Shown here piece by piece: positions 2,307 to 31,519 of a stretch of 42,471 bases of DNA. Each line of letters starts with the position of its first letter. Positions within the stretch are counted from its first letter, which is position 1. The stretch is from NCBI GenBank assembly GCA_003599485.1, contig QZKM01000028.1:1-42471 (forward strand). The letters are read 5' to 3'. The stretch is from Gammaproteobacteria bacterium (lineage in GTDB: Bacteria; Pseudomonadota; Gammaproteobacteria; SURF-13). Below the pieces are notes generated by a model. It made no database searches. It was not told where the DNA came from and worked only from the letters and a program-made list of their open reading frames with translations. The position numbers were made by a program, and so were the translations under genes.

Positions 2307-2340
2307 AGCTAAAAAGGATAACACAGTTAGCAGGCTGTTT

Positions 2341-2495
2341 TAAAACGGCCTGCGTGCGGCGCACGGATGCGCCGCTATTTTTCAAGCACGGTGCAGGTGC
2401 GTGAAAAATGGAGCAAAGCAAAAATGACACTTTTTGCTTTGCGGGTTAAAAAAGGCCATGGACGGCCTTTTTCAACAACCTGTCAGAGCGCTGTT
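2341..2495. repeat. Composite hairpin element, copy A (forward)
   Basis: Four consecutive perfect or near-perfect inverted repeats fill this intergenic space. Module C: stem GCGGCGCA/TGCGCCGC at 2356-2375. Module B: ATTTTTCA..TGAAAAAT with inner GCAC/GTGC at 2377-2409. Module A: GCAAAGCAAAAA/TTTTTGCTTTGC at 2413-2442. Module E: AAAAAGGCC/GGCCTTTTT at 2449-2472. Modules C-B-A recur in the same order near 31.4 kb and inverted near 25.9 kb. No open frame lies in it. It separates ypjD from nudJ. Confidence 0.8.
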
Positions 2496-25799: not shown

Positions 25800-25916
25800 A
25801 TGGGGCACTTCAATTTCATCGTGCTCGGCGGTGGCCGGTGCATCGCCACCGTACGCGCCTTACCCCCTCTTTTAAAAGGTGGATTGGCCTGTCGCAACTA
25901 TTTAAGGAAGCTCTGA
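25800..25916 (+). pseudogene. Remnant of a flavoprotein disulfide reductase, possibly merA
   Basis: An AGGAGG ribosome site (25784-25789) is followed by an ATG and 38 codons. The start MGHFNFIVLGGG looks like the FAD-binding beta-alpha-beta start of pyridine nucleotide-disulfide reductases (IVLGGGSAG type), but the motif is already damaged (GGGRCIATVRA) and the frame loses similarity after about 20 codons. The TGA lies inside the first palindrome of hairpin element B. Given merR and MerC-like genes just upstream, a lost mercuric reductase is a reasonable guess, but any related flavoprotein is possible. Confidence 0.45.
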
Positions 25917-26210
25917 ATAAGTCCATCCTGGACTTCTCAGAGCACGAAAAGCAAAAACATGGTTTTTGCTTTTCTTCATTTTTCAAACACTTTCGTGTTT
26001 GAAAAATGGCGGTGCGTCCCTGCACCGCACGGAACCTCTGACTTAATCAGAGGTTCCTTAACAGTTTGTTGAAAAACGCCGTCCCTGGCGTTTTTCAACT
26101 CGCTCGCCGCGGTACACGCCCGCGGCTCGCTCCGAAAATCAAACACTGGCGTGTTCGATTTCCGATGCGGCACATCCTTGTGGGGTCTGGCAGTTCGTTT
26201 TTCAACGAAC
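25910..26210. repeat. Composite hairpin element, copy B (inverted, longest)
   Basis: A run of palindromes with hardly any spacing: GCTCTGA/TCAGAGC (25910-25943); AAAAGCAAAAAC/GTTTTTGCTTTT (25947-25973, module A); CATTTTTCAAACAC/GTGTTTGAAAAATG (25977-26008, module B); GCGGTGC/GCACCGC (26009-26028, module C); GGAACCTCTGA/TCAGAGGTTCC (26031-26057, module D); GTTGAAAAACGCC/GGCGTTTTTCAAC (26068-26099, module E); and GTTCGTT/AACGAAC (26193-26210). The order A-B-C-D is the reverse of copies A and C. It fills the gap between the merA-like remnant and the convergent MDR gene. Confidence 0.85.
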
Positions 26211-26212
26211 CG

Positions 26213-27145
26213 CTAATCCGCCACGCGCAGCACAACCTTTCCGCGCGTATGGCCGCCCTGCACGGCGGCGTGCGCCCTGGCCGCTTCATGCAGGGGAAAG
26301 ACGTTTTCCACCACGGGTTTGACTTTGCCCGCGTCTATCAATTCGGCAATCCGGGTGAGCTGCGCGGCGTTGGGCTGTACGAACACGTAAGCCGAGCGCC
26401 AGCCGTGCTGTTCGGCTTCGCCGGGCACAGTGAGCGCCAGGATGGAAACCAATATGCCGCCTTGCCGTAACGCCTTCCAGGAACGCGCCTGCACCTCGCC
26501 GCCCACCGTGTCAAACACCATGTCCATATCGCGCACCGCGTCCTCGAAGCGCGTCGCGGTGTAATCTATCGCTTCATCGGCGCCGAGCGAGCGCACGAAG
26601 CTTGCATTGCGCGCGGAGGCGGTGGTGACCACGTGCGCGCCCTTCCAGCGCGCGAACTGCACGGCATAATGGCCTACACCGCCCGCGCCGGCGTGTATCA
26701 GAATCTTCTGGCCCGGTTGCAGATCGCCCGCGTCAAACAGCGATTGCCAGGCGGTGAGCGCCGAGAGCGGCACGGCGGCGGCGTGAATGAAATCGAGAGA
26801 TTTTGGCTTCAGGGCCGCTTCACTGGCGCGCACCGCGATATATTCGGCATAGGCGCCGTCGCGCGCGAGATCAGGGCGCGCGTACACCGCATCGCCAACG
26901 TTAAACTGCGTCACGCCGGGGCCGGGTTGCTCAATCACGCCCGCCACGTCCCATCCTAAAGTGAGCGGCAGGTGATGGCTGATGCGCCCTTGCAGACGCC
27001 CCTCGCGGATTTTCCAGTCCACCGGATTGACGCCGGCGGCGTGCACGCGGATCAGCACTTCGCCCGGACCGGGCACGGGACGCGGCGCGTCTTCGTAGCG
27101 CAGCACTTCCACGCCGCCGAATTGATGGATGCGCACCGCCTTCAT
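26213..27145 (-). CDS. NADP-dependent quinone oxidoreductase-like MDR protein
   Basis: A 310-residue medium-chain dehydrogenase/reductase of the zinc-free quinone reductase type. The N-terminal GroES-like part (MKAVRIHQFGGVEVL, NPVDWKIREG) is followed by the Rossmann motif HAGAGGVGHYAVQFARWKGA near residue 150. No structural or catalytic zinc cysteines are seen. Predicted to reduce quinones or enones with NADPH; substrate is unknown. It follows the pirin gene by 16 bp on the same strand, a pairing that suggests a shared redox role. Confidence 0.87.
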   Translation of the reverse strand: MKAVRIHQFGGVEVLRYEDAPRPVPGPGEVLIRVHAAGVNPVDWKIREGRLQGRISHHLPLTLGWDVAGVIEQPGPGVTQFNVGDAVYARPDLARDGAYAEYIAVRASEAALKPKSLDFIHAAAVPLSALTAWQSLFDAGDLQPGQKILIHAGAGGVGHYAVQFARWKGAHVVTTASARNASFVRSLGADEAIDYTATRFEDAVRDMDMVFDTVGGEVQARSWKALRQGGILVSILALTVPGEAEQHGWRSAYVFVQPNAAQLTRIAELIDAGKVKPVVENVFPLHEAARAHAAVQGGHTRGKVVLRVAD

Positions 27146-30918: not shown

Positions 30919-31366
30919 TGTGGTGGAGGTTTATACCGACGGCGCCTGCCGCGGCAATCCCGGCCCCGGCGGATGGGGCGTGCTGCTGCGCTATCAGGGA
31001 CATGAGAAAACCCTGCGCGGCGCGGAAGAACTCACCACCAACAATCGCATGGAGATGACGGCGGTGATCAAGGCGCTGGAATCGCTGAAACGGCCATGCA
31101 CGGTGCGCGTGACCACCGACTCGCAATACGTGAAGCACGGCATCACCGAGTGGCTGCCGCAGTGGAAGCGTCGCGGCTGGAAGACGGCGGATAAAAAGCC
31201 GGTGAAAAATGTGGAACTGTGGCAGGCGCTGGAACGTGCCGCGGCGCGCCATAAGGTAAGCTGGCACTGGGTGCGCGGGCATCAAGGCCACCCGGAGAAC
31301 GAGCAGGCGGACCGGCTGGCCAATCAGGCAATAAATGAAATGCTGGAAATGACAGGGAGCCCCTGA
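30911..31366 (+). CDS. rnhA: Ribonuclease HI
   Basis: A 151-residue RNase HI that degrades the RNA strand of RNA-DNA hybrids. Catalytic acidic residues are visible in [16 protein letters not shown] (first Asp), NNRMEMTAV (Glu), [11 protein letters not shown] (Asp) and NEQADRLAN (Asp). Start at 30911 overlaps the upstream gene by 8 nt. The last codons and the TGA stop lie inside the first palindrome of hairpin element C, so insertion of the element may have replaced the original 3' end. Confidence 0.96.
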
Positions 31367-31498
31367 TTTAATCAGAGGCTCCGCGGCACAGTGACGTGCC
31401 GCCATTTTTCAATCACGCATTGTGATTGAAAAATGAAGAAAAGCAAAAATTGCATTTTTGATTTTCGTCTCTGAAAAATTCAGGGATGAATTTTTCAG
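31357..31498. repeat. Composite hairpin element, copy C (forward)
   Basis: Five successive inverted repeats: GAGCCCCTGA/TCAGAGGCTC (31357-31381, module D, one mismatch); GCGGCAC/GTGCCGC (31383-31402, module C); CATTTTTCAATCAC/GTGATTGAAAAATG (31403-31435, module B); AAAAGCAAAAAT/ATTTTTGATTTT (31439-31465, module A, one mismatch); CTGAAAAATTCA/TGAATTTTTCAG (31471-31498). It fills the gap between rnhA and dnaQ. Confidence 0.85.
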
Positions 31499-31519
31499 AA
31501 CTTTTATAGGAGTGCCGTG

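Follow-up and report, generated by a model that had tools for sequence, protein, structure and literature searches.

A five-hairpin MITE of the IS5 subgroup dispersed among Gammaproteobacteria

Results

A single ordered element occupies three intergenic regions

The hairpin clusters in three intergenic regions of the window (the whole stretch of gammaproteobacterial DNA analysed here, 42,471 nucleotides) are copies of one ~150-bp MITE of the IS5 subgroup. Very probably it is a non-autonomous element that is moved in trans, with its folding selected in the lineages that spread and its inserted copies left to decay. It is short (150-165 bp), has no coding capacity, carries terminal inverted repeats (TIRs) that are mainly either GGAAGCTCTGA (type 1) or CAGGTTGTTGA (type 2), and is flanked by 4-bp YTAR duplications.

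The palindromes and stems quoted in the initial annotation were found where it had placed them, and its observation of tightly packed palindromes with covarying stems in three intergenic regions is confirmed. It had read the modules as D-C-B-A, C-B-A and A-B-C-D; the conserved order stands but the differing module sets do not, for a complete element of ~150 bp is present in each region, its five hairpins in a single order, E-A-B-C-D, running on the plus strand at 25906-26057 and on the minus strand at 2331-2482 and 31356-31505. Similarly, the palindromes taken to form a single copy at 25910-26210 are real, but the region (25906-26212 in our delimitation) consists of two adjoining elements, one of type 1 (25906-26057) and then a degraded one of type 3 (26062-26212). 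The features are as follows.

2327-2330: TTAG, left target-site duplication of copy A (from the sequence and the YTAR rule; the right side is TCAG, one change)
2331-2482, minus strand: copy A, complete type-2 element (covariance model match, E=9.1e-26)
Hairpins of copy A, on the plus strand: D 2331-2352, C 2356-2375, B 2377-2409, A 2413-2442, E 2445-2476
2483-2486: TCAG, right flank of copy A, a decayed duplication (from the sequence)
25902-25905: TTAA, left target-site duplication of copy B (from the sequence)
25906-26057, plus strand: copy B, complete type-1 element with TIRs GGAAGCTCTGA / TCAGAGGTTCC (covariance model match, E=6.8e-39)
25910-25943, plus strand: copy B hairpin E, formed on the left TIR, with an ATCC loop
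25946-25974, plus strand: copy B hairpin A
25977-26008, plus strand: copy B hairpin B, perfect 14-bp stem
26009-26028, plus strand: copy B hairpin C, GC-rich, with a TCC loop (AGGGAC on the minus strand)
26031-26057, plus strand: copy B hairpin D, the palindrome formed by the right TIR
26058-26061: TTAA, shared by copy B, as its right duplication, and the type-3 element, as its left flank (from the sequence)
26062-26212, plus strand: degraded type-3 element adjoining copy B, TIR CAGTTTGTTGA (covariance model match, E=2.3e-6)
26213-26216: CTAA, right flank of the type-3 element (from the sequence)
31352-31355: ACAG, left flank of copy C, a decayed duplication (from the sequence)
31356-31505, minus strand: copy C, a complete element of type 1 that lies between rnhA and dnaQ (covariance model match, E=1.2e-30)
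Hairpins of copy C, on the plus strand: D 31356-31382, C 31383-31402, B 31403-31435, A 31438-31466, E 31470-31499
31506-31509: ATAG, right flank of copy C (from the sequence)

When folded as RNA, the minus strand of copy B (25906-26057) reached -87.3 kcal/mol, compared to -35.5±3.7 in dinucleotide shuffles (z -14), and the plus strand gave z -13 against shuffles, so that folding of its hairpins is not due to chance. Copies 97% identical to copy B are present in two other genera, and the type-3 element at 26062-26212 is 94% identical to a sequence on contig 4 of the window's own genome (G000:C4:44040-44196).

Some loci depart from this plan around hairpin A. In L006, L010, L011 and L014 its loop encloses a further palindrome, CCATAAGATTTCTTATGG or similar, and in L017, L010, L023, L037, L048 and L088 a GC-rich insert (GGCCGCTCCTGCGCATCCCTGCGC...GTACATCCTGTACGGCA) to its left replaces part of the hairpin and contains more small hairpins with TCC loops.

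Target duplications, an uninterrupted site and a recent burst

Among copies with YTAR at both flanks, the same four bases were present on the two sides in 57 of 63, compared to 18.6±3.5 in shuffles, none of 5000 shuffles reaching 57; the search for target duplications proposed in the initial annotation was thus positive. A site uninterrupted by the element was found at rnhA-dnaQ in a relative (G002), where the two genes overlap with no element in between and where the window has copy C. The rnhA stop codon in the window comes from copy C, and at 31352-31516 rnhA and dnaQ are set apart by the element with this new stop, whereas stop and start overlap in G002; the element may uncouple translation of the two genes. 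In another relative (G001; L249, ~1300-1400) the same gap has a lone palindrome, GGGATCTCTGATTTATTCAGAGTTTCCC, resembling hairpin D by itself.

The closed genome G148 contains 11 near-identical copies in two versions one base apart, most with an identical 4-bp repeat at both sides (CTAA, TTAG, TTAA, CTAT, TTGT). Two closely related versions, mostly with a duplication of their own at each site, indicate a recent burst.

Distribution of the family

DNA searches combined with the covariance model located ~30 copies in the draft genome (1.69 Mb) to which the window belongs. The proposal that the palindromes form a dispersed family moving as a unit is therefore borne out, the further copies found genome-wide having the conserved hairpin order. 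All six genomes of the window's order carry the element. A pattern search with hairpin B had matches in at least 108 stretches of named genomes of Gammaproteobacteria, including Ca. Muproteobacteria, Acidiferrobacterales, an Olavius algarvensis symbiont and Ca. Thiosymbion, and the covariance model detected the family in 49 of 274 genomes sampled over Gammaproteobacteria, belonging to 38 genera and, by their family labels, to 32 families. No copies were found in the viral contigs searched, and the plasmids searched gave matches to the ends only. In the window, the only Rfam match above the gathering score was a tRNA, and the element was unmatched.

Insertion sequences with matching ends

Insertion sequences sharing the ends of the element have in common the NF033581 transposase and the YTAR target of IS5 (IS5 subgroup; E. 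coli insH1), YTAR being the known target of IS5 (PMC10359306). An IS5 on a Methylomonas plasmid ends in GGGAATCTCTGA / TCAGAGGTTCC, the type-1 repeats, and its transposase fits NF033581, the same model as that of E. coli IS5. Two genomes that carry the element have IS5s with YTAR duplications, the ends being GGAACCTCTGMAAAA (type 1) in G015 and CAGGCTGTTGAAA, the type-2 terminal repeat, in G022. In G148, five insertion sequences of the IS5 subgroup with matching ends are present in addition to the 11 element copies; two of the five (L300 and L306) adjoin a five-hairpin element with a YTAR common to both, an arrangement like that of the element pair in the window. Moreover, the ends of the element appear to follow the local IS5 transposase, judging from two cases: insertion sequence and element both read CGCTGA in G284, the reading elsewhere being CTCTGA, and both read CTGCA in G015.

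A search of the draft assembly of the window's genome (96% complete) gave no IS5-type transposase; repeats such as insertion sequences may have been lost from this assembly. With none in the draft, the element looks stranded in this genome. A search of the window's order for an IS5 transposase with matching ends also gave none. We rejected the three IS5-type transposase loci of G001 as the source of the element, as their ends differ. The element is also not a deletion derivative of the IS5s seen, with which it has only ~10-15 bp of the ends in common, and no source for the inner hairpins A, B and C was found in any IS5 examined.

Paired arms change together, mostly on internal branches

Across 38 type-1 copies, 95.7% of cells were paired, and 26 pairs had changed on both sides, compared to 11.3±1.9 in column shuffles and at most 9 when the partner column was slid. 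The arms hence change together, as first noticed in the window, and arm covariation in type-2 copies agrees with type 1 for four helices (E, A, B and C). The hairpin B search pattern fixed some B positions, so that B in the loci fetched with it is informative only at the free positions; the pattern placed no such constraint on A, C, D and E.

On the type-1 tree we counted 87 compensated changes, compared to 0 to 11 with slid partners. In type 1, internal branches had 42 double-compensated changes to 34 single breaks and terminal branches 45 to 111 (odds ratio 3.0, p 1.5e-4); in type 2 the figures were 32 to 16 and 34 to 49 respectively (p 0.006). These are counts on trees of 150-bp sequences whose copies are not independent. 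Consistent with this, copies 0-5 bases apart differed by 28 single changes but only 2 double ones. That compensated changes lie mostly on internal branches and uncompensated ones mostly on terminal branches suggests that folding matters for the spreading lineages and not at each site, each copy being free to decay. The simplest reading is that inserted copies decay freely and that the lineages that continued spreading retained intact folds. This narrows the initial alternative, in which structure is either selected or copied.

Arm covariation could also be mutational, with template switching within a hairpin copying one arm to the other and so producing perfect stems without function. Around 40% of the compensated changes are of transversion types (AT to TA, for example) that are impossible via a G-U pair, and few intermediates were seen at some B-stem pairs, both as expected from such copying. 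Yet near-identical copies differ by uncompensated single changes, compensation is enriched on internal branches where arm copying predicts an equal double share at all ages, and the conserved loops are left unexplained. We therefore regard a purely mutational origin as unlikely, and favour selection on folding in the spreading lineages.

Conserved loops and a possible CsrA/RsmA connection

Loops were initially thought to differ freely. This holds for hairpin B but not family-wide: across 37 genomes the inner stems vary greatly, but the E and C loops retain TCC and the A loop YGYG (32 of 34 aligned). Of 116 distinct elements, 110 have TCC in the C loop, 105 have it in the E loop, and 81 have YGYG in the A loop. 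Read on the D-to-E strand, the TCC loops become GGA, the commonest E loop being CAGGATG and the C loop CANGGATG or similar. The loops of CsrB carry repeats of CAGGA(U/A/C)G, and the CsrA site obtained by selection is RUACARGGAUGU (PMC7652899); only 14 of the 116 distinct elements have the full ACARGGATGT core.

A D-to-E transcript would thus resemble the CsrB/RsmZ RNAs in showing GGA, on one strand, in the loops of several of its hairpins, although those RNAs are not dispersed mobile repeats (PMC7652899). On this analogy, the transposon might spread putative CsrA/RsmA-binding hairpins into gammaproteobacterial transcripts, and such binding, or other loop-specific recognition, would keep folding and loops selected, a proposal that we find rather doubtful. 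The element stems are longer than those of selected CsrA ligands (PMC7652899), and a search of the element for a promoter-like site gave none. Looking for csrA in the genome stretches analysed also gave none, but these cover part of each genome only, so that the result carries no weight either way. When wobble pairs were used to look for a strand-specific RNA, stem breaks giving A.C outnumbered those giving G.T (78 compared to 54 in E-to-D coordinates, p 0.045), an asymmetry that is weak and split between hairpins and on which we hence do not rely. Taken with the lack of strand preference described below, these results make a CsrA-type role a candidate and not an explanation.

Placement of copies between genes

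Copies are enriched between convergent genes, with 25 of 65 there compared to 26 of 174 gaps of ≥60 bp (p 1.6e-4), counts that are rough since genes around copies were called by longest ORF only. Between co-directional genes the element showed no preferred orientation (15 to 14). Enrichment together with indifference to orientation is as expected if insertions survive where they are least harmful.

The convergent enrichment, and two terminator-like sites in copy B (25906-26057), would also fit the element being kept because at each site it serves the host locally, terminating transcription or stabilising mRNA at gene ends. Harmless insertion between convergent genes, however, gives the same enrichment, and neither the even orientation between co-directional genes nor the accumulation of stem breaks in single copies fits such use, which we hold to be improbable. 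Free decay of inserted copies remains our preferred reading at the level of the single site.

Relation to known dispersed repeats

The nearest described relative of the element is MITEPsy1 of Pseudomonas syringae, likewise an IS5-related MITE with short inverted ends, which duplicates CTAG/YTAA and whose transposition has been demonstrated; in contrast to the element, it is 100 bp long with no five-hairpin body described (PMC3189936). A 107-bp MITEPsy1-like element with GGAAGSTCTGAAAAAGCCC ends, also lacking a five-hairpin body, occurs in Citrobacter and Klebsiella plasmids and is probably the one that the MITEPsy1 paper mentions as a relative. In the Citrobacter plasmid pBKPC18-1 (L168, 2490-2620) the ends of this MITE, common on Klebsiella and related plasmids, are nearly those of the element. 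IS5 of E. coli, with ends GGAAGGTGCGAAYAAG, is autonomous and about 1.2 kb long, unlike the element. BOX elements of Streptococcus pneumoniae are similarly composite, modular, structured dispersed repeats, but have variable numbers of boxB modules and belong to a different phylum (PMC3049150).

A link to REP/BIME palindromes dispersed by a RAYT (Y1) transposase, raised at the outset, is hardly credible: REP/BIME are dispersed intergenic palindromes like the element, and the window's genome has two Y1 transposase genes, but REP/BIME lack the terminal-repeat and YTAR-duplication architecture and belong with another transposase class, whereas our unit is 150 bp long with five different hairpins, IS5-type ends and 4-bp YTAR duplications, and neither Y1 gene is adjoined by an element in the manner of 20-40 bp palindromes beside such a gene. 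The two Y1 (RAYT-like) genes, at L265 and L266, lie in positions unrelated to the element; a 26-base palindrome adjoins the first.

A literature search, subscription papers and ISfinder apart, revealed no description of the element or its end sequences. New here are the five-hairpin body conserved with stems replaced and loops kept, its breadth, and the two kinds of ends on a shared core.

Discussion

In the mechanism that we propose, the element, itself without genes, would be mobilised in trans by an IS5-subgroup transposase supplied by a resident insertion sequence. This transposase would recognise the short terminal inverted repeats and insert the element at YTAR, duplicating 4 bp; insertion of the whole element would account for its fixed hairpin order as well as for its dispersal. 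The body is made up of five back-to-back hairpins, with the terminal repeats in the two outer ones and A, B and C as the inner three. Folding of a single strand, whether DNA or RNA, would be selected in the lineages that go on spreading, and copies, once inserted, would decay.

MITEs are usually regarded as passive scraps of insertion sequences. Here, a five-hairpin fold has lasted, along with its loop motifs, in at least 32 families of a single class while the inner stem sequences were replaced. With its natural comparative data set and a closed genome bearing a fresh burst, the family lends itself to the question of whether a MITE spreads better for having single-strand structure in its body. 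For annotators, it supplies a cause for many intergenic arrays of hairpins that are so far unexplained.
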